A DNA stretch of 39,736 nucleotides from assembly GCA_945900455.1 (NCBI GenBank), contig CAMDJH010000021.1, positions 1 to 39,736 of the forward strand, given 5' to 3'. The position numbers and the translations under genes are program-made. The stretch's first letter is position 1. Every line of letters begins with the position of its first letter. Positions 1-22,684 of the stretch are shown in pieces. The notes beneath the pieces were generated by a model. It was not told the origin of the DNA. It worked only from the letters and a program-made list of their open reading frames with translations, and did not search any database. This DNA comes from Akkermansia muciniphila (GTDB lineage Bacteria; Verrucomicrobiota; Verrucomicrobiia; Limisphaerales; UBA9464).

Positions 1-1051
1 ACTTCGCGATGCCGTTGGTAAACTGCGTCCCGGAGGTCGCGTCAATGTTCACACCGACGTTAAACTCCGTGAATATACTGTTAAACACCTTGGGAGCCGC
101 ATACACCCGCGAGATGAGGGCTCGTGCACCGGTCGTGTTGGTGCCCGCCCCAATGTACGTCGCATTGTAGATCTCGAAATTCCCCTTTGGCGAGTTACCC
201 ACGCCAATCCCGTTGGGCTCGCCGTTCCATTCGCCGCCATTGTCCTTCTTGTCGGACGCCTGGAGCGCGAACCAGAACTGGTTCTTACCACGATACCCCT
301 GGTCGATGTCGAAATTGTCGTCATCGCTGAAGATGCTCGCCATGTACTTCGTGTTCACCGTTCCTCCGAAGAACTCAACCGAATCATCCGCTGCGCCAAA
401 CACTTCGACATTTTCAATCTTCGTGCCGCGGCCGACCGCGCACAAGGACAGCCCGTTAATCTCCTTGTCCGGCAGAATCACGGTTGAGGAATTCCGGATC
501 GACACGTAGCGGAACACACCCGAGTTGTCGTTGTCATCATTGCCGCCGTACCGGTGTAGCTGTTGGCTGCCCACCGCAGTATCGGGCAAACCCTCGAACA
601 AGTCATACTTGGGCGACGCCGCATTACCCGCGACATCGCTGGCCGTGTTCAACACGGATTTGCCAAAGATCACGATGCCGCCCCACAGCCCGCGCTGCCA
701 CAACGGAATATCACTGGGATCCGTCAAATCATCCGACTCCGAGCAGAAGATGACGGGTTTGGCTCGCGTGCCATTGGCGAAGATCTTGGCACCCTGAGTA
801 ATGAAGAGGACAGAGGAGGCAAGCCCTGTGCCAGCCTTGCCACGGATGACCGTACCAGGCTCGATCGTCAACACGCTGTCGGCCAGAACATAGACGAACC
901 CGTTCAGGATGTACTCATTCGAATTGCGCCAAGTCACATTGCCGGTAAGATTCCCGGAAACCTCCACCGTAGCGGCTCTTGCTCCAAGCGAAGCAAGGAG
1001 CCCCGCGCAGATCAGTCCAGCAATTGATTTTGTTTTCAGATAACTAATCAT
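1..1051 (-). CDS. Secreted beta-helix-like protein, TonB-operon partner (partial, C-terminus off window)
   Basis: An open frame runs from an ATG at 1051 to the left edge (350 codons, no stop), so the C-terminus is missing. It begins with a signal peptide (MISYLKTKSIAGLICAGLLA, then SLGARA-ATVEV). The mature part has short beta-strand and turn segments: YVLADSVLTIEPGTVIRGKAG near residue 45, GLWGGIVIFGKSVLN near 100, RYGGNDDNDNSGVFRYVSIR near 145, GAADDSVEFFGGTVNTKYMA near 200 and FDIDQGYRGKNQFWFALQAS near 225. I recognise this as a widespread exported family of unknown function, probably a right-handed parallel beta-helix, often found beside TonB-dependent receptors (family knowledge from memory). 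It is the last visible gene of the TonB operon, 129 bp after the heparinase-like gene. Its ligand is unknown; a surface or periplasmic capture protein is an inference. Confidence 0.82.
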   Translation of the reverse strand, partial: MISYLKTKSIAGLICAGLLASLGARAATVEVSGNLTGNVTWRNSNEYILNGFVYVLADSVLTIEPGTVIRGKAGTGLASSVLFITQGAKIFANGTRAKPVIFCSESDDLTDPSDIPLWQRGLWGGIVIFGKSVLNTASDVAGNAASPKYDLFEGLPDTAVGSQQLHRYGGNDDNDNSGVFRYVSIRNSSTVILPDKEINGLSLCAVGRGTKIENVEVFGAADDSVEFFGGTVNTKYMASIFSDDDNFDIDQGYRGKNQFWFALQASDKKDNGGEWNGEPNGIGVGNSPKGNFEIYNATYIGAGTNTTGARALISRVYAAPKVFNSIFTEFNVGVNIDATSGTQFTNGIAK

Positions 1052-1086
1052 AAGTTTTTCAAAGTTCACTTTAACTAACGACCACC

Positions 1087-1114
1087 CCGTCATTTGAGCA
1101 GCTCTGAATGACGG
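1087..1114 (-). promoter_or_regulatory. Intercistronic hairpin in TonB operon
   Basis: Perfect 8-bp inverted repeat CCGTCATT / AATGACGG with a 12-nt loop lies between the heparinase-like gene and the beta-helix gene, 36 bp before the latter's start. On the transcribed strand it is not followed by a T run, so it is not a classical terminator. An mRNA-stabilising or processing element that sets different expression of the last gene is possible (inference). Confidence 0.4.
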
Positions 1115-1180
1115 TCACGCGCCGGCTGGGTGACAATGTGGTGAACTCAGTGCCAATCCGAGCACAGGGGGCGGCGGGCG

Positions 1181-2134
1181 TTACTTGGCCGAGGGACGCT
1201 TTTTTGGACTGAAAACCGAGACCCCAACCGGGCCGGCAAACTCAAATCCAGTAAGGCTTGCCTTTTCGTCGGCAGGCCCCGTTCTGAATGCAATGAGGGT
1301 CGGATGGCCCTCCCGGTGAATGCGCGCACCGATTGCATCGTTACCTTCGAGCAGTCTAAAAGCCAGCTCGCCCCTTTCACCGGCTCGATGGGTCGCAAAT
1401 ACTGTCAATAGGTTGAGTTCAACCATCGCATTGGTCGCACCCAACTGGACCGTCACCGTATTTTCGAAGATTCCATCGGCAATAGAATCAATCCGCTCCC
1501 AACTGCGCGGCTGCTTTTGAATCGCTGGTGCGTGAACTCTCAGGCCCGCCCTCGGAAGCTCCAACCGAAGGTCTCTCCAGATGGCATCCACCCGTGTGGC
1601 CGATGGGGGGTGCATCCGCATCTGGAAGGACGACGTCGCCCCGGCAATCAAATGGTCATGCAGGATAAAAAGGTCTGGCTCGACATAAAGGACGCCCCTT
1701 CTGAATTGTTTTACCAGCCCCTGATAAGCACGACTGCCGTCCAGACCGATATAACTCCAGCCCGGGCCAGAGGCCTCCTCCACCACAACCAGGCCGTTAC
1801 CGTGGGCCAACTCCGGCCCTTTTCCATTGACCAGAATATTATGAAGCTCTCCACCCGCCGCAGCTTGACTAAGCGAGCGCCGCAAGGGCTCACCTCCAGG
1901 GCTTGCAATCAAGATCTCACCATGCGCTTCGATCTCAAACGTATTGAACAAATGGCGGGCATCCGGCGCCGCGTTTGTGTACAAGCGAAATTGAATGGCA
2001 TTGGTCGCGTTCGGCAGCACAACAAAGTCTCGCGGGATTTCGGCTGCTCCAAGATCCACCCGTGGGTCCAACTCTCCATGCGCTCCGCGGAGAAAACCGA
2101 GCACAAGGAGACCCGCAATGAACGTACGTTTCAT
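1181..2134 (-). CDS. Secreted heparinase II/III C-terminal-domain-like protein
   Basis: This 317-aa protein starts with a signal peptide (MKRTFIAGLLVLGFLRGAHG-ELDP). The body is beta-rich. The segment ELHNILVNGKGPELAHGNGL (near residues 96-115), followed by YVEPDLFILHDHLIAG (near 150-165), resembles the beta-sandwich domain at the C-terminus of heparinase II/III-type polysaccharide lyases, where an HNT(L/I)xVDG(K/Q)xQ-like motif is common. The alpha-toroid catalytic domain of those lyases is absent, so lyase activity cannot be claimed. Only 3 bp separate the upstream receptor stop from this ATG, implying translational coupling. A role in binding the glycan or ligand handled by the receptor is inference; an unrelated beta-sandwich is the alternative. 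Confidence 0.75.
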   Translation of the reverse strand: MKRTFIAGLLVLGFLRGAHGELDPRVDLGAAEIPRDFVVLPNATNAIQFRLYTNAAPDARHLFNTFEIEAHGEILIASPGGEPLRRSLSQAAAGGELHNILVNGKGPELAHGNGLVVVEEASGPGWSYIGLDGSRAYQGLVKQFRRGVLYVEPDLFILHDHLIAGATSSFQMRMHPPSATRVDAIWRDLRLELPRAGLRVHAPAIQKQPRSWERIDSIADGIFENTVTVQLGATNAMVELNLLTVFATHRAGERGELAFRLLEGNDAIGARIHREGHPTLIAFRTGPADEKASLTGFEFAGPVGVSVFSPKKRPSAK

Positions 2135-2137
2135 GGG

Positions 2138-5038
2138 CTAGAAATCGTAATGCAACGTCATTCCGAAGCTGCGCCCCCTGGAATAGGATGAGTACAGCAG
2201 GGAGGTATTCTTCCCGTAAGTGCGCTCGAAAGTGGGGTCGAGAAGATTCTTAAATGCGAACTTCATCGTCAGGTGAGGGCCGATTTTCTGCGAGAGCACG
2301 AAATCCAGAACGGGTGTCGGCTGTTCATAAACATCGTCGGTATTCAACTTGGTGAGGGCAATGCGGGGTCCCGCGACGTTATATATTATAGCGGCGGTTG
2401 TCCCGAGCCGCTCGTTACTGTAGTTGAGATCGAAGTTTATGATGTATGGAGATTGATCATAAAGGGGACGCGTGGGTTCGGTGTCGGGTAGGAACATTTG
2501 CTTCACATTGTAGTCGTTCGTCGACAATTTCACCTCGGATGCCACCAGGGCCAAGTTCCCCCCGACACTGAATGGAGCCAGGGGCGACCCCATAAAGCCA
2601 AGGCTCTTCCGACCTTCGAACTCAATGCCGTACAGAATCGCGTCATTGTTGAAGAATGTAATGACGTCCCCCTCCTGTTTTACGTTGCCTCGTTCAATCG
2701 CATCCTGAAGTTTCTTGTAGAATAGGCTGGCACTGACCAGTTCGCCCGGCCGGAAAAACCATTCCCAGCGCGCATCGAGATTTTCGATCGCGGACATCTT
2801 CAACAGGGGATTTCCCTCGACGAAATCACTGACAATCGGATCATAGCTGTAGTAGGCAGCCAGCTCACGAAAGCTTGGGCGGGCGACCGTCCGGCTGTAG
2901 TTCAACCGGACATTCATATTAGTGATCACCGCATAGGTGAGGCCAATACTCGGCAGCACGTCTGCCTGGTTCAGCCTCGTATCATTGGTTTTCTTGCCCG
3001 TGATGCTACTATCCAGATAACTGATGGAATACACGGAGATGTCCGATGCTTCGTATCGCGCCCCGCCCGTCAGCCGGAGATTCTTGACGAGGGGAAGCTC
3101 CGCCATGAGATAGGCTGCCTGCACCGTGCGATCGCCGGTGTAGAGGCTGTCAAAAACCTGGACATAATCACCCCAGTTAAACTTGATGCTGCGGGCGTTG
3201 GTCTTAACCGAGAGCAAACCCAGGTTTTCCGGAGTGAGAAACAGATTGGGATTGTCCTGATACCCACCACGCCCCGGGTAATAGAATTGTCGCTCGGTGA
3301 AATTACGGTCCGAGGAGCTGTCGAAGACTCCCCATTTGACCCGGCCTTCATCGGGGGTCCAATTGGAGAATGGAAGAATCCAGTCCAATTTTGGGTTCAG
3401 ATTACCTTCATCAAGAGCACGGAAGTACCGCGTAGGGTCTTTCGGATTTGAGTTCTTTCCGCCGGTCTCAAATCCGCTTCCCGAGTTGTTGTCGTTGAAG
3501 AAGCGCGCATCGGGTTCGTCCTGGGTGGTCTGTGCCAGCCCGACAAGCCAGTTAAACTGAAGGTCACCCAAGCTCGGAAGTCGATGTTCTCCTTTCATCT
3601 GATGGGTCATCAGGTTGCGCTCGATCCAGTACAGATTGAACTTCCGAAATTCCCCCCCCGTGCTGTTGTTTGCGTCAACGCCCTGATCCTGGATCCGGAC
3701 GTCATCGACGGCATTTTGATTGTAGAAGAACGTGTAACCCAGTTCGTGATTCTCAATGGGTTTGTAAGCTAGGTTCACCATTCCCGACCAATTCACCGTG
3801 CCCAGGGATCGGGCGTCCCGATAGCTGTTCTTGATCTCGGTCCCGCTTTGGTAGCGCCGGGAGATTCCATCCTCGTAGGAGGCGTATTCATGCTTGTAGC
3901 TCACGCCGGCGAAGTACCCCAACAGTCCGTCGAATACCGGCACCGAGCTGCCACCCGCTGCAGACAGGTTATGATTCAACGGGGGAACGTCGTGTTTGGG
4001 GGCAAACTCCGAGGTGCCCAGCGCCTGCGTTACCCGATCGAGGCGAAGTTGACTCTCGACCTTTTGCCTGAACACGGGCGAGTTCGTCGGGAGATTGCCA
4101 ACGAGGGGTGTCGGCAATGGTTGCCCGAGGGGTGCTTCCTGGTTGACGGTACTCGGCAATGCACGTCCCCCGTCGTCCATAGCGGCCCAGTCCAGTGCGC
4201 CGCCTTTGTAGGTGAGAAAGTGATCGTTAAGATTTACCTGCGGATTGTAGGCACCGCCCAGCGACACCGAAAAAAAAGGCTTCTCCGGGAATGATTTCGT
4301 GACGATGTCTATGCCGCCTCCCGTATAGGTGCCTGGTTGATCGGGTGTGAAGGTCTTGGCTACCACCACACGGTCGATCACCTGCAACGGGAACAGGTCG
4401 AGCGAGGCGGACTGCCGGTACGGGTCGGCGGATGGGACGCTGGCGCCGTTAAGCGTTGTGGTGATGTACCGGTCATTCAAGCCGCGGATCACGGCGGACT
4501 TGCCATCCACAATCGTCGCGCCCGAGATTTTTGAAATCGACTCCGCCGCATTGCCTGCACCCACCCGGGAAAGAAAGTCCGAGCCGAGCGCCTCCATCAT
4601 TGATGGTGAATTCTGCCGTTCAAACAGGATCTGTTCGGTTTGTTTGGTGAATTCCTCGGCGGTGACCTCGTATTCCTCCATCTCATAGAATTCGGGACGA
4701 AGATTCCCATTCACTGTGGTCGTTTCGCCAGGCAACACGCGGACATCGGTTACCGTCGCCGAAGCGAATCCAGACTTGGAGAATCGTACTGTCTGAACTC
4801 CGGTCGGCACGCTGTTCAGTAGGAATCGGCCCGTTGAATCGGATTGGGTCCCGAGCGTGGTGCCCCGCACGGTGATCGCGGCACCCGCCATCGGTGAACC
4901 ATCCCAGGAGCTCACAACAACGCCGGTCACACTGCCTGATTCTTGGGCGGTCGCATCCGTGCCCACCCACCAGGCAAGTAGGACTGCTGCCAGGATAAGA
5001 GCCTGCGGCACTCTCATCCGGTTGGAGATCGTTCCCAT
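2138..5038 (-). CDS. TonB-dependent outer-membrane receptor
   Basis: 966 aa from the ATG at 5038; the frame stays open upstream but that part overlaps the TPR gene and has no signal peptide. Order: signal peptide about 1-32 (ALILAAVLLAWWVGTDATAQ), carboxypeptidase-regulatory-like beta-sandwich about 35-114 (GSVTGVVVSSWDGSPMAGAA), possible TonB box EMEEYEVTAEEF at 119-130, plug about 138-250 (IRGLNDRYITTTLNG, then GGGIDIVTKSFPE), then a long 22-strand-type barrel ending in the aromatic HYDF typical for BamA recognition. An alternative start is ATG 5017 (MRVPQALIL). It imports an unknown ligand using energy from TonB-ExbB-ExbD. The gene starts 25 bp after the TPR stop and is followed at 3 bp by the heparinase-like gene. 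No SusD partner is present, so it is not a classical SusCD pair. Confidence 0.93.
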   Translation of the reverse strand: MGTISNRMRVPQALILAAVLLAWWVGTDATAQESGSVTGVVVSSWDGSPMAGAAITVRGTTLGTQSDSTGRFLLNSVPTGVQTVRFSKSGFASATVTDVRVLPGETTTVNGNLRPEFYEMEEYEVTAEEFTKQTEQILFERQNSPSMMEALGSDFLSRVGAGNAAESISKISGATIVDGKSAVIRGLNDRYITTTLNGASVPSADPYRQSASLDLFPLQVIDRVVVAKTFTPDQPGTYTGGGIDIVTKSFPEKPFFSVSLGGAYNPQVNLNDHFLTYKGGALDWAAMDDGGRALPSTVNQEAPLGQPLPTPLVGNLPTNSPVFRQKVESQLRLDRVTQALGTSEFAPKHDVPPLNHNLSAAGGSSVPVFDGLLGYFAGVSYKHEYASYEDGISRRYQSGTEIKNSYRDARSLGTVNWSGMVNLAYKPIENHELGYTFFYNQNAVDDVRIQDQGVDANNSTGGEFRKFNLYWIERNLMTHQMKGEHRLPSLGDLQFNWLVGLAQTTQDEPDARFFNDNNSGSGFETGGKNSNPKDPTRYFRALDEGNLNPKLDWILPFSNWTPDEGRVKWGVFDSSSDRNFTERQFYYPGRGGYQDNPNLFLTPENLGLLSVKTNARSIKFNWGDYVQVFDSLYTGDRTVQAAYLMAELPLVKNLRLTGGARYEASDISVYSISYLDSSITGKKTNDTRLNQADVLPSIGLTYAVITNMNVRLNYSRTVARPSFRELAAYYSYDPIVSDFVEGNPLLKMSAIENLDARWEWFFRPGELVSASLFYKKLQDAIERGNVKQEGDVITFFNNDAILYGIEFEGRKSLGFMGSPLAPFSVGGNLALVASEVKLSTNDYNVKQMFLPDTEPTRPLYDQSPYIINFDLNYSNERLGTTAAIIYNVAGPRIALTKLNTDDVYEQPTPVLDFVLSQKIGPHLTMKFAFKNLLDPTFERTYGKNTSLLYSSYSRGRSFGMTLHYDF

Positions 5039-5063
5039 GAGAAGGAGTTGGAGACGGTGCCGC

Positions 5064-6515
5064 TCAGGACCGACTGCTGGTGCGCGCGAGCTGCTCCACT
5101 TTTTCGAGGTAACGCTGTACGTTATCTCGCGGCTTGAGCTTCTGCGCCTTTTTGAGCAACTCACTCGCAGGGACATATTTCTGCGACTTAACAAGCAACT
5201 GGGCATGCTTGACCAATGCCTCGGCTTCAAACCCTTGAATCCCGCCTGCGGTGCGGTAGCGGATCTCCGCTTTCTCGCTTTGGTTATTCTTCGAGTAGTA
5301 GTCGCCCGCCAACAGGAGCGCTTCGCCGTCAAGTGGATTCTTCCCCAGGATTTGCTCCAACGTCTCAATGGCCTTCTCGCCCGAGCCGGCCGACATTGCG
5401 GCTTTGGATTCCAACTTCAAGAGTTGCAATTCGTCCGCCCCGGTCAGCTGCGTTCCGGCGTTGCGGATCTTGGAAAACATCAGGTCCGCCTCCGTCCACG
5501 CACTCCGACTGACTAGAATCTGCGCCGCGCGGAGCGCCTTTGCAGGATTTTGTCCATTGTCCTTTTCGACGGCTTCGAGGTACGCACCGAGCGCGAGATC
5601 GCGCGACTCTTGCGACATGTAAAGATCGCCGAGCAAATAGAGTGTCTGGGTATTGGCCTTGCCCGCCCGCCGCAACATCTCAAGACTGATGGCGGCTTTT
5701 GCCGGCTGCTCCCGTTGGATATAAATGTTGGCTTGTAATGACCAGAGGGTGTCACGCTCGGGATACTGCGTGATCAATTCATCCAGCAGTGCGAGTGCGT
5801 AGTCGAAATTCGCCGTGGCGATCGAACACTTCACCAGGGCGAGCTTGAAATCGATGTTCTCCGCCTCGAATACCAACGCCTGGCGATATGCGGCCTCGGC
5901 CGAAACGTTCCGGCCCTGACTCAAATAAGCGAATCCCAGCAGTCCAAACACTTTTCCGTCACCACCCCCCAACGCAATGGTTCGGACCAAGGGTTTGATC
6001 GCTTCGGCATACTTGCCGTCACGAACCAACGCAAATCCAAGGTTCTTCTGGGCTCGTCGAAAGTCGGGATACTTTTCAATCGCAGCCTCGAAATGTTTCA
6101 CCGCGTTCGTCAGATCCTCCGCTTGAAAATAGAGGTTGCCGAGCGTGAAGTCGAAAATGGCGGTGCCGCCCGGTTTAAGGAGCGAGCTCAACAAAGATTG
6201 AGCTTTTTTCTGATCATCACGCAGGAGAGGCACCACTTTGTCGCGATAGGCCGCCTGTTCCTCCGGGGTCATACGCGGCTCAATATCCGACGCGAATCCG
6301 TAACTGCCGATCAGGCGGCGAGCAAACTCAGGATCGTTCCACATGGAGGCGAGTTCGTGCCCTTCGGGCAACGGGGTAAAGGTCGTCGGTGCCACGGCCT
6401 CCGCACTCTTTGGCGGTTTCGACGCGGCCACGGCGAGGAATCCGCCCAGGAGGCATACCCCTCCCACGAGCGTCCTCGCCCACTTCAGGCTTCGGTGAAT
6501 CAATTGGTTTGTCAT
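5064..6515 (-). CDS. Periplasmic TPR-repeat protein of the TonB system
   Basis: 483 aa with an N-terminal signal peptide or anchor (RTLVGGVCLLGGFLAVAASK, residues about 15-33). From about residue 105 to the end it consists of helical repeats with TPR signatures, for example IFDFTLGNLYFQAEDLTNAV, KHFEAAIEKYPDFRRAQKNL, FGLLGFAYLSQGRNVSAEAA and LYLLGDLYMSQESRDLALGA, about ten repeats in total. A TPR protein directly after tonB is a hallmark of TtpC/TonB2-type loci (family knowledge); it probably scaffolds the complex in the periplasm. It starts 9 bp after the tonB stop and precedes the receptor gene by 25 bp. No catalytic domain is visible. Confidence 0.9.
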   Translation of the reverse strand: MTNQLIHRSLKWARTLVGGVCLLGGFLAVAASKPPKSAEAVAPTTFTPLPEGHELASMWNDPEFARRLIGSYGFASDIEPRMTPEEQAAYRDKVVPLLRDDQKKAQSLLSSLLKPGGTAIFDFTLGNLYFQAEDLTNAVKHFEAAIEKYPDFRRAQKNLGFALVRDGKYAEAIKPLVRTIALGGGDGKVFGLLGFAYLSQGRNVSAEAAYRQALVFEAENIDFKLALVKCSIATANFDYALALLDELITQYPERDTLWSLQANIYIQREQPAKAAISLEMLRRAGKANTQTLYLLGDLYMSQESRDLALGAYLEAVEKDNGQNPAKALRAAQILVSRSAWTEADLMFSKIRNAGTQLTGADELQLLKLESKAAMSAGSGEKAIETLEQILGKNPLDGEALLLAGDYYSKNNQSEKAEIRYRTAGGIQGFEAEALVKHAQLLVKSQKYVPASELLKKAQKLKPRDNVQRYLEKVEQLARTSSRS

Positions 6516-6524
6516 CTTGGCTTG

Positions 6525-7184
6525 TTATCCCGCCATCACTCGGAAGCGCATTGGGATTCGGATATAGGTGCGCACCGGTTGACCGTCCTTCATGCCGGGA
6601 GTGAAACGCCACTTGCGGATCGCCTCCAACGCCGGCTTTTCAAACTCGGGGCGGGTCGAATTCTCGACGCGCGGATCCTCCACCCGGCCCTTTTCATCCA
6701 ACACAAAGAGCATCGTCACGACGCCTTCGACCTTTGCCTTGCGGAGTTCCGGCGGATAGGCGGGTGCGACTTGAGTTACCGCTTCGGGACGCTTCTCGAG
6801 ATCGGCGACATTGAACGCCTCTTCCTGCGTCGCTGCGGCAGCCGCCACCGAGTGGGTCTCCCCGAAGCCAGCCAGGGCGCCCCCTGATCCCATGGCCACC
6901 TCCAGATCAGCGCTCAGGGGAATGGCCTGCTTTGCCTCCGCCAACTGTGGTTCCGGGGCTGCCTCCGGCGGCTTCATTTCCTCGATCTGAGGCGGGAGTG
7001 TCTCTTGGGCGGGCGGCGGCAATTCCACCGCACCGGTTTTTCTAAGTTCCAATGTGCGGTCGGGTTTGTTGATCCGATGCGCAAAAGGAATGACACCGAA
7101 GAGCAGGGCAGTGAAGCCCACGGACAACGTCACCGCCACCGCCGTGCCGGTGGACGTATTGTCGTTTTGATAGACCTTGCGCAT
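6525..7184 (-). CDS. tonB: Energy transducer TonB
   Basis: 219 aa with TonB architecture. A single N-terminal membrane segment (TAVAVTLSVGFTALLFGVIP, residues about 13-33) is followed by a proline- and acid-rich periplasmic linker (PPPAQETLPPQIEEMKPPEA, about 55-75). The C-terminal TonB domain (about 137-218) carries the usual VAPAYPPELRKAKVEG start, VTMLFVLDEKGRVEDPRV, and the closing ALEAIRKWRFTPGMKDGQPV with the conserved W-F-P pattern. It links the proton-driven ExbB/ExbD motor to the receptor encoded two genes downstream. The linker is short compared with E. coli TonB. It lies 22 bp after exbD and 9 bp before the TPR gene. Confidence 0.94.
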   Translation of the reverse strand: MRKVYQNDNTSTGTAVAVTLSVGFTALLFGVIPFAHRINKPDRTLELRKTGAVELPPPAQETLPPQIEEMKPPEAAPEPQLAEAKQAIPLSADLEVAMGSGGALAGFGETHSVAAAAATQEEAFNVADLEKRPEAVTQVAPAYPPELRKAKVEGVVTMLFVLDEKGRVEDPRVENSTRPEFEKPALEAIRKWRFTPGMKDGQPVRTYIRIPMRFRVMAG

Positions 7185-7206
7185 CGCGCCTTTCAGTGCA
7201 AACGGA

Positions 7207-7611
7207 TCAACCCTTCTCGGTTGCGAGACTCACGTCCTTCGCGCCACCAAGCTTGGCTTCGTCAATCACTCGAATGACCATGCCCGAGCGCGCGTTCTCG
7301 TCCGCCTGAATGACTACCGAGAGGGGCTCTTTTGCACAGAGGCGTTTCACCGTGGGGCGAACGCCACCCAGTCCGATTTCCTTCCCTCCGTAGGCGACTT
7401 TCCCGTCGGGTGTCACCGCAAAGATGATGCTGTTCTTCTCAACCTGACTCGCGCTCGCCGCGGCAGGCTTGTCCACTTTCACGCCCGGCTCCTCAATGAA
7501 GCTCGTTGTGGAAACGAAAAAGATCAGCAGAAACATGATGATGTCGATGAGCGGAATTAGATTCAGCTCGATCGGCTCATCCGGCTCGGCAAGTGTGCGG
7601 CGAAATCTCAT
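7207..7611 (-). CDS. exbD: ExbD/TolR biopolymer transport protein
   Basis: 134 aa, normal for ExbD. The N-terminal cytoplasmic stretch leads into a single transmembrane helix LNLIPLIDIIMFLLIFFVST (residues about 16-35) that contains the conserved membrane aspartate, here D23, which carries protons through the ExbB pore in this family. The periplasmic domain (about 60-134) has the typical IFAVTPDGKVAYGGKEI and PLSVVIQADENARSG pattern. Its ATG overlaps the TGA of the short exbB gene by 4 bp (ATGA), showing translational coupling within the motor genes. Confidence 0.94.
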   Translation of the reverse strand: MRFRRTLAEPDEPIELNLIPLIDIIMFLLIFFVSTTSFIEEPGVKVDKPAAASASQVEKNSIIFAVTPDGKVAYGGKEIGLGGVRPTVKRLCAKEPLSVVIQADENARSGMVIRVIDEAKLGGAKDVSLATEKG

Positions 7612-8282
7612 TGATGAACGAATTCAGGTTGCGGGCGGGGAACGGTGCGACCCGCATCTCGGCGAGTCACGAACTGGGTCATCTCTCCCCGGTGTTCGGG
7701 ACGCAGGTGGCGCAGAGTTATACCCTCCAGCCGTGTTAGAAACGCGACGTACTCGTGGCGCCGCCGCTTTGCAATGGTCGTTAGGATTAAACCTGGAATC
7801 GCAATCATCATTCCGGTTTGCGTGGCAATGAGGGCTTCGCTGATTCCCCTGGCAATGATCTCGGAAGTGGAACTTCCGCCGGTGCCAATCGCCTTGAACG
7901 TCAGCAGCATACCCAACACGGTGCCGAGCAAACCGAACAGCGGGGCGGTGACGACGAGCACATTCAGGAATGCAATTCGCCGGTCCATGTCCGAGACTTT
8001 TGTCGCCTCCACTTCCCGGAATCGACCTTCGACGTCGCGCAACGAAGGGGCTTCATCTTGCGTGTAGCGGATCAATTCGCGGATCCGTCCCGGAGCTTCC
8101 GAGGGCCGGGCCACCCAACCTCGCAACACCCCATCCGACGCCTTGGTGAGGCCGCGATAGTGTAGCATCCGCAGCAGACGGAACGCGCTTGCGTATAGGA
8201 CAATGGCAAGCAATGCCATGGCGCCCATCACCAGGCCGCCATTCGACCATGTATGCCACATTTCGTGTATCACTGCGTTCAT
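7608..8282 (-). CDS. exbB: MotA/TolQ/ExbB proton channel protein (short ExbB)
   Basis: 224 aa from the ATG at 8282 (MNAVIHEMWHTW). An in-frame codon further upstream at 8345 would overlap the preceding gene and add an unlikely leader. Three membrane segments: about 15-35 (GGLVMGAMALLAIVLYASAF), about 110-135 (FLNVLVVTAPLFGLLGTVLG) and about 155-178 (EALIATQTGMMIAIPGLILT). The GLLGTVLGM and GISEALIATQTGM motifs are the ExbB/TolQ signature. With ExbD it forms the proton-driven motor of the inner membrane. It is the second ExbB of the operon, 22 bp after the long form, matching the duplicated ExbB layout of TtpC systems. Confidence 0.92.
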   Translation of the reverse strand: MNAVIHEMWHTWSNGGLVMGAMALLAIVLYASAFRLLRMLHYRGLTKASDGVLRGWVARPSEAPGRIRELIRYTQDEAPSLRDVEGRFREVEATKVSDMDRRIAFLNVLVVTAPLFGLLGTVLGMLLTFKAIGTGGSSTSEIIARGISEALIATQTGMMIAIPGLILTTIAKRRRHEYVAFLTRLEGITLRHLRPEHRGEMTQFVTRRDAGRTVPRPQPEFVHQ

Positions 8283-8304
8283 GATGCGGGAGGTTAGGAC
8301 AGGC

Positions 8305-9741
8305 TTAGTGAGAGGAATCGTCGTCGGTGCCGTTCGATAATCCATTCACGAAACCAACCGCTGTCTGCTCCATGCTGCCGATGATTGCCTTGGCTCGACG
8401 GCTGAGGAATGCGTGAAAAAGTAGTGCTGGAATCGCAACCGCCATGCCGGTCGCCGTGCAGATAAGCGCCTCCGATATGCCAGCCGCCAACATCTTCGGA
8501 TCACCGCCGCCAAAACTGGAAATGATCTTAAACGTGGCGATCATGCCCGTGACGGTTCCGAGCAAACCCATTAGCGGACCCGTGGTCGCGGCGAGGGCGA
8601 GGAACGGCAGCCCCCGTTCGAGCCTCATCCGTGCTCCCAGCATTTTCTCATAGAGGATTTCCTCGATATATTCCTTCTTCTCGTCGATGTGTTCAATGGC
8701 GGCGGCCAGCAGGTCACCGGCCATGCCAGGAATACTCCGAACGTGCTGCAATGCCTTGTCGGGTTTCCTGGATTCGAGATATTGCAGAACCAACTGTAAG
8801 TCGCCCTCGGTCGCGAGTCGGACCCGGGAAAACTCGAACCACTTGAAGAGAGCGAGAAGAACGGCGGCGAGGCCCAAACCAACCAGTGGAATCATGACAA
8901 TGCCGCCCTTTTTAAGCTTTTCGAACAGAGATTCCTCCATGGCGGCAAGCTTGAAAGCATTGCCGAGGGTGGGGTCCAACACCAACTCTCCCGAGCCGGA
9001 GGCTACGAGCGCTCGACTGGCGGCTTCCAGGGCGGGATCCAGTTTGGCGATGCTCGGATCCGCCTTGTTCAGCTCCTGCTGTAACAGACCCGCCGGACCT
9101 CCCGCACTGGCTGAAAACATCGCCACTGGCCCGATCAGTGCAACCTTGCCCGTCCGCAGGACGCCCGTTTTATCCAGCGCCCGGCCGTCGATCAATTCTC
9201 CACCGAGGGCACCTTCCGCCCGTTTTAGAGCTGCTGTTAAGAGGACGGAACGTGCATTGAATTTATCCGCCGGCGCCATATCCGCAGCCGCGCCCGCTTT
9301 TTCCACGGATTCAAACAGCGAGCCGAATCGGGGCTCCTCAACAAAATTGAGACGGGACCGGAACGCGCGCGTGTATTCACTCAGCAGCGATTCTATGTAT
9401 TTAACTTCGTCGCCGCGCTGTTTGGCTTCGGTCTTCAGCGCATTCAATTCGACAAGTTGATTCTCCTGGACCCGCTGCGCCTTGGCGAATTCAACGCGTC
9501 GTTCCGCCACTTTTTGCTCAAGCTCCGTTATCTGTCGCGCGAGCGGAAGGCGGTCGGTTTCAATTTCCTGCCGGACTCTTGACAATTCGGCGAACGCCGT
9601 CTGCAAATCCTTGCCAGCCCCCGAAGCAAGATTTTCCATGTTTTGACCGAACCCGTCCGACGGCACGAGGACGATCGTCGCCGCAAGAAGGCCAATGAGG
9701 CGGCTTGTCACAAGGCTATTGCAATTGAAGAGTTGTTTCAT
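8305..9741 (-). CDS. Long ExbB-family protein with periplasmic coiled coil (TtpC-like)
   Basis: 478 aa, about twice a normal ExbB. It has a signal peptide (LLAATIVLVPSDGFG-QN, cleavage near 33), a charged coiled coil about 45-125 (AELSRVRQEIETDRLPLARQ, then ELEQKVAERRVEFAKAQRVQ), and a globular periplasmic region to about 270. The C-terminal MotA/TolQ/ExbB module follows: TM near 278-300 (GIVMIPLVGLGLAAVLLALF), then GLLGTVTGMIATFKIISSFG and ISEALICTATGMAVAIPALL. This matches TtpC, the extra inner-membrane component of TonB2 systems, thought to span toward the outer membrane (family knowledge). Its ATG overlaps the DUF3450 stop by 4 bp. Confidence 0.92.
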   Translation of the reverse strand: MKQLFNCNSLVTSRLIGLLAATIVLVPSDGFGQNMENLASGAGKDLQTAFAELSRVRQEIETDRLPLARQITELEQKVAERRVEFAKAQRVQENQLVELNALKTEAKQRGDEVKYIESLLSEYTRAFRSRLNFVEEPRFGSLFESVEKAGAAADMAPADKFNARSVLLTAALKRAEGALGGELIDGRALDKTGVLRTGKVALIGPVAMFSASAGGPAGLLQQELNKADPSIAKLDPALEAASRALVASGSGELVLDPTLGNAFKLAAMEESLFEKLKKGGIVMIPLVGLGLAAVLLALFKWFEFSRVRLATEGDLQLVLQYLESRKPDKALQHVRSIPGMAGDLLAAAIEHIDEKKEYIEEILYEKMLGARMRLERGLPFLALAATTGPLMGLLGTVTGMIATFKIISSFGGGDPKMLAAGISEALICTATGMAVAIPALLFHAFLSRRAKAIIGSMEQTAVGFVNGLSNGTDDDSSH

Positions 9742-10499
9742 TGGATGACTACCGGAAGGGAAACGAATCGGGCGGAGCGCTCGTTTCTATAGATTCGAAT
9801 GACCTCCCGGACAGGAGACGCCAGCTCGCGTTTCACCGTCCATTCCCAACCCTTTTTTCCCGGAGAACCCACCCCACCAAAATCTCCTGAATCATTGACG
9901 AAGTACGCGGCCCCCAACCCGACATAAACTGTTTCCACGGCGAGCTCCTCGCCTTTTTCATTTTTCTGCTTGTCACTAAAAATTGAGACCGCGTTGTTGA
10001 ACTTATCCAGTTCATTGAGGATCCCAACCATCACCTGAACGCGCTCGGTCGCGGGCATCTTGGTGCTTTCGGGATTTAGGGGGATTCTCGCCAGGAGCGG
10101 CTTTAGGATATCCTGGAGCGGCATGGGAAGCCGGGGAACCACCTCTGCGATTCGGACCTCGAGATCCGCCGCAAATTTCCGGGTTTGTTCGAGGCTCTCG
10201 TTGGATGACTTGAGCAACGCCTCCGCGTGCAACCACTCCTTCTCAACCTGCGTCGTGTTTGTACCGAGCCTGGTTATCTGGGTTTCGATCGACTTCAGCT
10301 CGCGATCCAGCAGTTGAGTGGTCTGATCGAGCAGATCCCGGTCGGATTGCCAGTCGGCCTTGGTCTTGGAGATCAATTGGCGGGTCTCGACCCATTTCTC
10401 AAGGGTGGACCGTGCCTCACTCAATGGAACCTCTGCCCGGGCGCAGACGACCGCGCACGCGGCAGCGAGGAGAATCCAGCCCCAACACTTTGAACTCAT
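9738..10499 (-). CDS. DUF3450-family periplasmic coiled-coil protein
   Basis: 253 aa from the ATG at 10499 (MSSKCWGWILLAAACAVVCA, a clear signal peptide with cleavage near ARA-EV). The mature protein opens with a long coiled coil (STLEKWVETRQLISKTKADW to EQTRKFAADLEVRIAEVV, residues about 27-120). A C-terminal segment follows with ELAVETVYVGLGAAYFVNDS and PVREVIRIYRNERSARFVSL, characteristic of DUF3450. This family is almost always the first gene before the long ExbB in TtpC-type TonB operons (family knowledge), and it is so here, with a 4-bp ATGA overlap to the next gene. It probably acts with the coiled coil of the long ExbB. A weak purine-rich stretch precedes the ATG. Confidence 0.88.
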   Translation of the reverse strand: MSSKCWGWILLAAACAVVCARAEVPLSEARSTLEKWVETRQLISKTKADWQSDRDLLDQTTQLLDRELKSIETQITRLGTNTTQVEKEWLHAEALLKSSNESLEQTRKFAADLEVRIAEVVPRLPMPLQDILKPLLARIPLNPESTKMPATERVQVMVGILNELDKFNNAVSIFSDKQKNEKGEELAVETVYVGLGAAYFVNDSGDFGGVGSPGKKGWEWTVKRELASPVREVIRIYRNERSARFVSLPVVIQ

Positions 10500-10848
10500 G
10501 AAACCACCCTGGGGGAGTGAGGTCACAGGCGTGCGGCGGCTCGGTTACGATTCCGTGACAACCGAATCCATCGTCGCTGCGATGGCTACTCCGTTTATTA
10601 ACCGGAGTTGGAACCGCGGATGAACACGGATAAACGCCGATTTCGGACGTTTGGGCCGTGTTCCGTCGCTCACTCTGGAAGTGGGGGCTGCTGCTGCATC
10701 TTATCCGCGTCGATCCGTGTGAGTCCGCGGTTCTTCCCCCCGCAAATTCCTGTTTCAAGTTCAACGACTCAACCGGCCGATCAGCGCCTAGGAGCTACGT
10801 GTAAGGCTTGATACTTAGGGGTTAGATTCTCGGCGTGGAACCCGCCCT
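10500..10848. other. Gene-free stretch upstream of the TonB operon
   Basis: 349 bp without a credible gene, between DUF1844 and the TonB operon. It should hold the operon promoter for leftward transcription, but I cannot point to convincing -35/-10 boxes. The only clear structure is the long inverted repeat annotated separately at 10612-10732. No transcription-factor operator or Fur-box-like palindrome was recognised. Confidence 0.6.
10612..10732. repeat. Imperfect long inverted repeat (probable dispersed intergenic element)
   Basis: The left arm starts AACCGCGGATGAACACGGAT at 10612 and continues to about 10641. The right arm (about 10702-10732), read on the other strand, starts AACCGCGGACTCACACGGAT. 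The arms match at most of about 30 positions around a 60-bp centre. From memory, sequences of the form CGCGGAT-AACACGGAT-AACGC are abundant between genes in several environmental bacteria, so this is probably a REP/MITE-like dispersed element rather than a site specific to the operon. Copies elsewhere in the genome cannot be counted here. Confidence 0.7.
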
Positions 10849-20804: not shown

Positions 20805-21650
20805 CTACTTCAGCGGCGCCCACTTTTGGTGCTGGTACCGGTTCCAAACCCAGACGAAGTCCGGATTCGCCTTACCACCACCGGCCCAATAGAAGCTTTC
20901 CTTGCCCTTTGCGGAATCAGTGGCCGCCTGGATCGTCTTGGGGTCGATCCACTTCCGCCCTTCCACGTGGTTGTCGGCGAACGAGAAAGTACTCCATGAC
21001 CCGTGGAAGATGGCAAAAGGATCCACCCAGCCTGGAGTTGCCACATTGAGGACCCAGGTTCCTGCATTAAAATTTCTCGGATCGGACTCTTCGATAAAAA
21101 CCATCGATTCCGACGCATTTTGGATTCCGCTCGATTTGACAAACGGCGGCTGTATGGCTGGCTCCCACCCGCCGCCGTTCATCCCTTCTGCTTTCGAGTA
21201 ACTGTCGTACGCCCAGCCTTTTCCCGGGGCGCGATTTTTGGTTCGGAGATCGCCGGGACAGTGGTAAGCGGCGTAGGCGGTGCAGTATTTCCAAATCGGC
21301 CCGTTGCTGAGGCCTTTGCGGACGCGGCTCTCCGCCACTCCCGTAGTGATTCCCACGGCGATATCCGGGCTTGGCCCGGGCCAGTAACCGCCACCGGTCA
21401 TGTTCACCCCGTTGTAGGTACTCGGGGCCAAAACGTCCCCGTTTTCCTCAGAGTACATGTACCAACCCAGGTTGAGCTGTTTCTGATTGCTCGTGCATGC
21501 CGCACCGGTGGCCTTCAGCTTTGCCCGGCCGAGTGCAGGCAGCAACATGCCCGCAAGAATGGCGATAATCGCGATGACGACGAGAAGTTCGATCAGGGTA
21601 AAGGCTCCGACGCCCGGTTTGAAAGGCGTAGGAGATGCGGGGGCTTTCAT
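20805..21650 (-). CDS. Pseudopilin / type II secretion-type prepilin (copy 1 of tandem pair)
   Basis: 281 aa. The N-terminus has the prepilin cleavage/methylation motif G-AFTLIE (residues about 15-21) followed by the hydrophobic helix [20 protein letters not shown] (about 22-41), so a prepilin peptidase should cut after G15. The large C-terminal domain contains [60 protein letters not shown] (the H-x-D/G pattern near the end) and a [15 protein letters not shown] tail. This type is greatly expanded in Verrucomicrobiota, Lentisphaerae and Planctomycetes; the roles of individual copies are unknown. About 40 of 281 residues differ from the next copy. Minus-strand RNA leaves 176 bp of empty sequence before the lipoprotein gene's end. 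Confidence 0.92.
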
Positions 21651-21838
21651 GAGTGATTAATGAATTCGTGTGGTCTCTGCCCCCGAATAAAGCAGGGAAT
21701 GTGGAAGAGAAAAGGCAAAATTAGCACTTTATCTTCAAGGGTCGCCACAGACTCCATGGATGACGAATCGCAGTCCCCTTTTTGATTCTCCCGATTTTCT
21801 TAAGCTTCGTCCCCTCCAAAATACCCCCGGCCGGCGGG
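21651..21838. other. Spacer between tandem pseudopilin genes
   Basis: 188 bp without a gene. It contains no hairpin with a T run that I can find, so read-through from copy 2 into copy 1 is possible. The spacer does not visibly match the 3' flank of copy 1 (20629-20804), apart from the immediate gene ends. Confidence 0.4.
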
Positions 21839-22684
21839 CTACTTGAGCGGGGCCCACTTTTGGTGCCGGTAACGATTCCAAACCCAGACGAAGTCCGGAT
21901 TCGTCTTGCCACCACCGGTCCAGTAGAAGCTGTCCTTGCCCTTGGAAGAATCGGTGGCGGCTTGGATTGTCTTCGGGTCAATCCACTTGCGCCCTTCCAC
22001 ATGGTTGTCGGCGAACGAAAACGTACTCCATATTCCGTGGAAAATGGCGAAAGGATCCACCCATCCCGGGGTTGCCACATTGAGCACCCACGTTCCTCCA
22101 TTGAAATTTCTCGTATCGGATTCCTCAATGAAAACCATTGACTCCGCGGCACTCTCGATTCCGCTGTATTTCACGAAGGGAGGTTGAATGGTTGGCTCCC
22201 ATCCGCCGCCGTTCATGGTCTCTGATTTTGAGTAGCTGTCGTATGCCCAGCCTTTTCCAGGAGTGCGATTCTTGGTTCGAAGATCACCCGGGCAGTGGTA
22301 GGCAGCGAAAGCGGTGCAATATTTCCAAATGGGCCCATTACTGAGGCCCTTGCGGATCCGGTTCTCCGCCTCACCACGCGTAATTCCCGCCGCGATGTCC
22401 GGGCTGGGCCCGGCCCAATAACCGCCACCGTTCATGTTCGCACCATTCCACTGACTCGGAGCCAAGACATCGCGGTTATCCTCCGCGTACATGTACCAAC
22501 CGAGGTTGAGCTGCTTCTGATTGCTCAAGCATGCCGCACCCGTTGCCTTAAGTTTTGCTTGGGTGAGCGCAGGCAGAAGCATTCCCGCTAGAATGGCGAT
22601 AATCGCGATGACGACGAGCAGTTCGATCAGAGTAAACGCTCCAATGCTCAATTTTCCGGGCGCCGAAGATGCGGAAGCTTTCAT
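21839..22684 (-). CDS. Pseudopilin / type II secretion-type prepilin (copy 2 of tandem pair)
   Basis: 281 aa, same length as the downstream copy and about 86% identical by eye count. It has the same G-AFTLIE prepilin site, the same hydrophobic helix ending [20 protein letters not shown], the same [20 protein letters not shown] and [20 protein letters not shown] blocks and an identical HQKWAPLK end. Differences cluster in the N-terminal leader and around residues 70-112 ([20 protein letters not shown]). It is first in the pair; 188 bp separate the two, with no gene. Both are probably secreted to or anchored in the cell envelope. The pair arose by recent duplication (inference). Confidence 0.92.

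Follow-up and report, generated by a model that had tools for sequence, protein, structure and literature searches.

The nine-gene operon at the start of the window (the whole stretch of DNA analysed, 39,736 nt) encodes, with a rough probability of three in four, a Pho-regulated, self-contained outer-membrane importer of a phosphorus-containing compound. The components of this reading differ in strength. Control by the Pho system, through binding of PhoB, is very likely; import of a phosphorus compound, which entails both a ligand and a direction of transport, is probable; and a role of the exported protein BHX as a surface binding partner or phosphatase accessory is an evenly balanced proposal. 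The gene set, its conservation across phyla, the pairing of the receptor with BHX, the conserved box and the phosphate-gene neighbourhoods were all computed in the present analysis. The first-pass annotation had left the ligand as unknown, a statement which needs changing, as phosphate starvation is indicated by the PhoB box predicted here, by the genes around homologues and by published expression results (PMC2996285, PMC8115612).

Layout and conservation of the operon

As claimed at first pass, the nine genes follow one another on the same strand (ORF list of the window), and Pfam backs the identities of the first seven:

10544..10560, minus strand: predicted PhoB box TGTCACGGAATCGTAAC, located 44 nt ahead of the DUF3450 ATG (10499)
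9738..10499, minus strand: DUF3450 protein (TtpB-like), 253 aa; PF11932, 1.2e-24
8305..9741, minus strand: long ExbB (TtpC-like), 478 aa; PF01618 MotA_ExbB, 3.1e-30
7608..8345, minus strand: short ExbB, 245 aa; PF01618 MotA_ExbB, 7.3e-23
7207..7611, minus strand: ExbD, 134 aa; PF02472, 9e-26
6525..7184, minus strand: TonB, 219 aa; PF03544 TonB_C, 4.6e-21
5064..6515, minus strand: periplasmic TPR protein (TtpD-like), 483 aa; TPR models
2138..5017, minus strand: TonB-dependent receptor, 959 aa; PF00593, PF13620, PF07715
1181..2134, minus strand: exported protein like the C-terminal domain of heparinase II/III-like (DUF4962) proteins, 317 aa
2..1093, minus strand: BHX, exported parallel beta-helix protein, first 364 of 638 aa

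The intergenic gaps, in gene order, are -4, -41, -4, 22, 9, 46, 3 and 87 nt. The span of 1-10499 originally assigned to the operon holds the nine genes, but the contig stops inside the BHX gene, which therefore continues past the edge of the window, and the regulatory site at 10544-10560 falls just outside. The remainder of the BHX gene lies on contig C334 (4709-5680), which overlaps the contig of the window by an exact 148 nt, and the joined protein has 638 aa. The first ATG of the DUF3450 gene is at 10499, and an alternative GTG start occurs at 10526.

The first six genes constitute a TtpB/C/D-type set. The DUF3450 protein combines an N-terminal signal or transmembrane segment with a coiled coil (hydropathy), and the long ExbB joins a signal segment and a long periplasmic extension to an ExbB channel domain, with TolQ/ExbB as PDB matches and a conserved ISEAL...TGM motif. 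The transmembrane segment of ExbD holds an Asp in its sequence, and the TPR protein occupies an equivalent position in related operons. The TtpC-type motor recognized at first pass is indeed in the same order as the Vibrio TonB2/TonB3 set ttpB-ttpC-exbB-exbD-tonB-ttpD, with all six motor and accessory genes shared; ttpB, ttpC and ttpD are all three needed by the Vibrio TonB2 system (PMC6957404).

The order of the operon is more than chance, as it recurs in relatives and in other phyla. In a set of 245 genomes from the order, 49 have both DUF3450 and BHX (OR 21.5, p=1e-20), and in 30 the two lie within 12 kb of each other. Gene order in the relatives reveals a conserved motor-receptor-BHX linkage, and thus the lack of linkage that the first-pass annotation had named as fatal to its dedicated machine is not observed. 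Of the two exported proteins which it had attributed to this machine, BHX remains; the heparinase-C-like gene occurs at this position in this genus only. The arrangement is not peculiar to Verrucomicrobiota; the same eight genes are found in gamma-proteobacteria. DUF3450 alone yielded no match on plasmids (tblastn), though DUF3450 genes are annotated on them; sequences of this family have diverged too far for a pairwise search to find them.

The receptor, BHX and the nature of the ligand

The receptor (Pfam) comprises an N-terminal CarboxypepD_reg domain, a plug and a TonB-dependent barrel. Its subfamily, defined here by linkage to BHX, is adjoined by BHX in 61 of 80 loci from about ten phyla, and the 20 highest-ranking receptor hits in 72,556 plasmid records each stand beside a BHX homologue. 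Scores of full-length receptors that adjoin BHX range from 207 to 1831 bits, as against 94 bits at most for other receptors. BHX thus regularly accompanies receptors of this subfamily, even though the heparinase-C-like gene sits between the two in the window. The receptor scores 205.1 bits for TonB-Xanth-Caul (TIGR01782), below the curated cut-off of 310, and no relatives of it were found on viral contigs. For the receptor, BHX and DUF3450, no solved structure is alike by sequence.

A receptor with a dedicated surface-exposed partner is also the arrangement of the SusCD/PusCD systems of Bacteroidota, and PusCD is phosphate-responsive (PMC8115612). In those systems the partner belongs to the SusD family, whereas here it is a beta-helix; no SusD model matched among the nine operon genes, which places the operon outside SusCD/PusCD.

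The beta-helix likeness proposed at first pass for the last gene is backed by an AlphaFold2 model of a BHX homologue (pLDDT 89), whose best PDB matches are parallel beta-helices. The assignment is supported by a VIA-align Z of about 22 together with the strand pattern, while Foldseek TM-scores for BHX are low (0.2-0.4). Most of these best matches are polysaccharide lyases, epimerases and depolymerases, which, along with the heparinase-C-like neighbour and the proposal that the Flavobacterium homologues are plant-glycan binders (PMC8115612), would suit a Pho-regulated glycan importer, in which a polysaccharide is bound or cut by BHX and its product imported by the receptor with the assistance of the heparinase-like protein. 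Such an importer is unlikely. Having a beta-helix fold in common does not demonstrate an activity, CAZyme, SusD and sugar genes are absent from the linked genes, and the neighbours at other loci are phosphate genes. The heparinase-C-like protein itself is similar to the C-terminal portion of DUF4962/Hepar_II_III_C proteins from other families of the order, in agreement with its first-pass name, yet it lacks their larger N-terminal domain. It is a genus-specific extra, and a conserved role for it in the machine was rejected.

An importer of iron, another metal or a vitamin, similar to Vibrio TonB2 and regulated independently of phosphate, has its precedent in the motor: the characterised TtpB/C/D systems power the uptake of siderophores, and TonB2 is under iron control and has a putative Fur site (PMC6957404). 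The TonB2 operon is, however, devoid of a receptor gene, and the regulator predicted here is PhoB. Vibrio TonB3, which does carry a receptor gene, is reported as not iron-regulated (PMC6957404); that gene stands at the start of its operon, whereas in the window the motor comes first, with the receptor and BHX after it. The siderophore and B12 genes noted as missing at first pass, as well as SusD, are absent from the linked genes, and so are heme genes. Since the conserved box is Pho-like and missing at motor copies free of BHX, and homologous loci adjoin phosphate genes, an importer of iron, another metal or a vitamin is very unlikely. No TtpC-type motor tied to phosphate was found in the open-access papers searched.

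A predicted PhoB box and the phosphate context

The PhoB-box-like repeat upstream of the operon is the sole match in the window, even when two mismatches are allowed, and matches the box of the genome's own pst operon, which has two near-identical copies, upstream of its first gene and of pstS. The exact pattern occurs 3 times in the 6.4 Mb genome and 0 times in the reversed control; single near-matches with up to one mismatch number 66, no more than in the reversed control. The case for this putative site rests on position and conservation. The box is kept at the matching place in relatives: with up to two mismatches it is found in 17 of 26 further BHX-linked operons, compared to 3.5% in shuffles, and the best sites fall within one 60-nt band in 23 of the 26. 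It is absent from second motor copies unlinked to the receptor-BHX pair (genomes G092, G106, G086 and G034). Upstream of the pair outside Verrucomicrobiota, at mostly Bacteroidota loci, the Verrucomicrobiota motif shows no clear enrichment (5/66, against 16/473 control genes, with up to one mismatch). Scans for sigma-70 promoters and terminators performed no better than shuffles.

No phosphate gene lies directly beside the operon of the window. Elsewhere, BHX-receptor pairs adjoin PhoB-type regulators, PstS, PHO4, a Na/Pi cotransporter, a phosphate porin and polyphosphate kinase. An Alteromonas plasmid carries the order phoB-phoR-pstS-2OG oxygenase-BHX-receptor-motor, and at Chryseobacterium loci a PhoB-type gene lies 190-325 nt from the pair. 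The ligand is probably a phosphorus compound because BHX relatives in other phyla adjoin such genes.

Published relatives appear to exist in Caulobacter (ElpS-CC0171) and Flavobacterium (FI/FII), likened to the pair by gene order and description. In Flavobacterium johnsoniae, PUSIII and PUSIV (Fjoh_3856-3857, Fjoh_0545-0546) comprise low-phosphate-induced lipoproteins beside TonB-dependent transporters, FII bears a pectin-lyase fold signature and PUSIV includes phoBR (PMC8115612). Motor genes are unreported there but linked in the window. In Caulobacter crescentus, ElpS (CC0170) is described as a secreted, phosphate-starvation-induced lipoprotein beside the receptor CC0171, itself reported as expressed whatever the medium (PMC2996285); the Caulobacter PhoB regulon (PMC11208175) likewise favours the phosphate reading. 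Both are pairs of a secreted protein and a TonB-dependent receptor, yet the Caulobacter pair adjoins type II secretion (T2SS) genes and the window pair a TonB motor. Alphaproteobacterial BHX-receptor pairs have the published CC0170-CC0171 order, with T2SS genes downstream, and an Indioceanicola homologue with this arrangement matches BHX (30%, 2.9e-39).

Like the ElpS/FI-FIII group, BHX is encoded next to a TonB-dependent receptor belonging to a single subfamily. Unlike ElpS and the F. johnsoniae lipoproteins, the BHX of the window carries a signal peptide of the ordinary kind; it is thus called a relative, not a member. Lipidation signals occur elsewhere, as a LAGC lipobox in gamma homologues and a Cys after the signal in those of Chryseobacterium.

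Oar-type receptors have been proposed as ports for export or surface delivery, and the receptor might by the same idea deliver BHX rather than import a ligand. The N-terminal CarboxypepD_reg domain, the T2SS genes beside the alphaproteobacterial pair and the matching of one receptor to one secreted protein in about ten phyla would fit, but the last pattern equally suits a receptor with a surface binding partner (SusC with SusD). In Caulobacter, ElpS is reported to need no T2SS to reach the cell surface and to be still produced after deletion of CC0171, production being the readout (PMC2996285). An export port is rated as very unlikely.

A possible phosphorus-capture module

For the phosphorus importer, the following sequence of events may be envisaged. 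Under low phosphate, phosphorylated PhoB would bind the box at 10544-10560 and turn on the whole operon. By analogy with Vibrio TonB2, an inner-membrane complex of DUF3450, TtpC, ExbB and ExbD would drive TonB at the expense of the proton gradient, and the TPR protein would be a partner of the motor in the periplasm. TonB would open the linked receptor for the ligand, while secreted BHX may capture the phosphorus compound, or help release it, at the cell surface and pass it to the receptor.

A broader and more doubtful hypothesis is that receptor and BHX together form a module for capturing phosphorus, common to about ten phyla, with a beta-helix in the role of SusD, and that the purpose of those TtpC-type motors which carry a receptor but have no known ligand, perhaps Vibrio TonB3 among them, is to energise this module.

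In many waters and soils phosphate is a growth-limiting nutrient, and outer-membrane transport of phosphorus compounds in abundant uncultured groups is largely unexplored. The present reading joins three apparently unconnected literatures, on TtpC-type TonB motors (studied for iron), Caulobacter ElpS and the Flavobacterium FI-FIII exoproteins, and provides a testable class of ligand both for an orphan subfamily of receptors that is widespread and for motor systems without an assigned substrate.

Gene content and conservation of the operon

The nine-gene order on one strand described in the first-pass annotation was borne out, as all nine genes were located between 10499 and 2 on the minus strand of contig C21, which is the window itself (contig end at window base 1) in a 6.4-Mb draft genome.

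9738-10499, minus: DUF3450 protein, first gene of the operon
8305-9741, minus: ExbB with a long N-terminal extension, 478 aa
7608-8345, minus: short ExbB, 245 aa
7207-7611, minus: ExbD
6525-7184, minus: TonB
5064-6515, minus: TPR protein
2138-5017, minus: TonB-dependent receptor
1181-2134, minus: exported protein, 317 aa
1093-2, minus: BHX, exported beta-helix protein, cut by the contig end

The intergenic gaps, in operon order (-4, -41, -4, 22, 9, 46, 3 and 87 nt), would fit a single transcription unit for the nine genes. The ISEAL...TGM stretch is retained in both ExbB proteins, as is the membrane Asp in ExbD. The reading of the operon as a TtpC-type motor machine draws on evidence from Vibrio, whose motor of this kind does not work unless ttpB, ttpC and ttpD are all present (PMC6957404). 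The remainder of BHX lies on contig C334, which shares an exact 148 nt overlap with the window and completes a protein of 638 aa. The window contig breaks inside BHX (at window base 1, with the continuation on L053, C334 5533-5680), as does that of the sister genome G002, and repeats within the BHX family may be the cause. Elsewhere in the window, 20805-22684 carries a tandem pair of near-identical 281-aa prepilin-like proteins with N-terminal prepilin-type segments.

Several genera of the same taxonomic order share the arrangement DUF3450-long ExbB-ExbB-ExbD-TonB-TPR-receptor, and BHX directly follows the receptor in the related genome G015, the MAG contig L070 and locus L073. Among 245 genomes of the order, DUF3450 occurs in 67 and BHX in 69; 49 have the two together (odds ratio 21.5, p = 1.3e-20). 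The two lie within 12 kb in 30 genomes, and in 28 of these DUF3450 precedes BHX on a shared strand at a spacing of 7.6-11.3 kb; this linkage is undercounted, because draft assemblies often break inside BHX. The same eight genes are also found in Gamma-proteobacteria, arranged as motor-TPR-BHX-receptor in Pseudoalteromonas and BHX-receptor-motor in Alteromonas macleodii, and Luteolibacter pohnpeiensis has receptor-BHX-motor. The proposed conserved linkage of receptor and exported genes to the motor holds for the receptor and BHX, but not for the 317-aa protein. This protein is similar to heparinase-like DUF4962 proteins in their C-terminal domain, and it occupies this position in the window's genus only.

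Loci L024 (G034:C44) and L023 (G023:C45) carry the DUF3450-TtpC-ExbB-ExbD-TonB-TPR set without receptor, BHX or Pho-like box. Contigs G075:C142 and G183:C36 come from genomes of different families, yet the coordinates and scores of DUF3450 and BHX are identical in both, possibly through shared contamination. L073 (CAMBHS010000019.1), labelled Akkermansia muciniphila, matches by gene position G078:C19 of the window's order, and its label is probably wrong.

Pairing of the receptor with BHX

The receptor and BHX form a pair. Among 72,556 plasmid records, searched independently with each protein, BHX matched 21 and the receptor 44, and the top 20 receptor matches were all in BHX records, close to BHX. 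The best 80 BHX loci from 84,980 scanned species genomes fall in about ten phyla; the receptor adjoins BHX in 61 of these 80 (median gap 90 nt), and many of the remainder sit on short contigs. Full-length receptors adjacent to BHX scored 207-1831 bits against the window receptor, and all others tested, including those of its own genome, at most 94 bits.

A structure model of a BHX homologue (26 sequences; pLDDT 89, pTM 0.88) had parallel beta-helices as its best PDB matches (Z about 22), including AlgE epimerase, tailspikes, NosD and pectate lyase. BHX is, as modelled, a beta-helix, a fold from which alone its activity cannot be told. Relatives often have at least two BHX repeats per protein, and long proteins with tandem repeats occur at L054:7705-10635, L056:1-3135, G138:C253 and G058:C10.

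Probable association with phosphate control

Upstream of the first operon gene lies TGTCACGGAATCGTAAC, a PhoB-box-like TGTCAC/CGTAAC direct repeat with an 11-bp period. Its pattern has a single match within the window, even allowing two mismatches, and three exact occurrences genome-wide (reversed control, zero), although one-mismatch sites are frequent across the genome. The pst operon of the same genome (porin, PstS, PstC, PstA, PhoU and PhoR, named from sequence) has TGTAACATGATCGTCAC 41 nt ahead of the gene that opens it, while TGTCACCCTGTCGTCAT stands 12 nt ahead of pstS. In relatives, too, the repeat can be seen ahead of the operon. Of 26 further BHX-linked operons, 17 carry a site that differs from the pattern at no more than two positions, versus 3.5% in shuffles, and the best sites of 23 of the 26 fall within a single 60-nt band. 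Second motor copies unlinked to the pair (genomes G092, G106, G086 and G034) had no site at that place. Such a site, at most two mismatches, precedes 9 of 33 other DUF3450 copies, four of the nine from genomes having BHX on another contig. Of the unlinked BHX genes, those of G008 and G034 are preceded by a box-like site, at -85 and -88 respectively, and that of G012 by none; the motif is not enriched at the mostly Bacteroidota BHX loci.

Around the pair, the best 80 BHX loci have 234 flanking genes, which include, as raw counts with no matched background, 18 OmpR-type regulators, six PBP_like_2 proteins, six PHO4 phosphate transporters, five phosphate-selective porins, three polyphosphate kinases and two Na/Pi cotransporters. 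Eight flanking regulators tested scored best with PhoB models, yet under curated cut-offs; both PstS proteins tested exceeded theirs. A PhoB- or PstS-like gene lies within 7 kb in 25 of the 80 loci, and PhoB within 400 nt in 13 (again raw, with no matched background). An Alteromonas plasmid has the order phoB-phoR-pstS-2OG oxygenase-BHX-receptor-motor, its 2OG-Fe(II) oxygenase gene (L067:6461-7252) lying between pstS and BHX.

Known counterparts and a proposed mechanism

The individual parts of the operon are already known. Caulobacter ElpS (CC0170) is produced on phosphate starvation, its release accompanies alkaline phosphatase activity, and its gene adjoins the receptor CC0171 and T2SS genes (PMC2996285), the same order as in the BHX-receptor pairs of Indioceanicola and Sphingomonas with T2SS genes; the Caulobacter PhoB regulon takes in TonB receptors and T2SS (PMC11208175). 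The ElpS-similar lipoproteins FI/FII of Flavobacterium johnsoniae are encoded next to receptors, by genes among those most strongly induced by low phosphate in that species (PMC8115612). Going by synteny and this published similarity, BHX appears to be of one family with ElpS and FI/FII. The TonB3 version of the motor in Vibrio, with a receptor gene, is not iron-regulated (PMC6957404). Among the open-access papers searched, none described a TtpC-type motor linked with both an ElpS-like protein and control by phosphate.

In the proposed mechanism, regulation alone is well supported in silico, and we infer the import, the ligand and the role of BHX. PhoB would activate expression of the operon, the TtpC-type motor would energise TonB, and TonB would open the receptor, through which a phosphorus compound would be imported; BHX may bind this compound or help liberate it.
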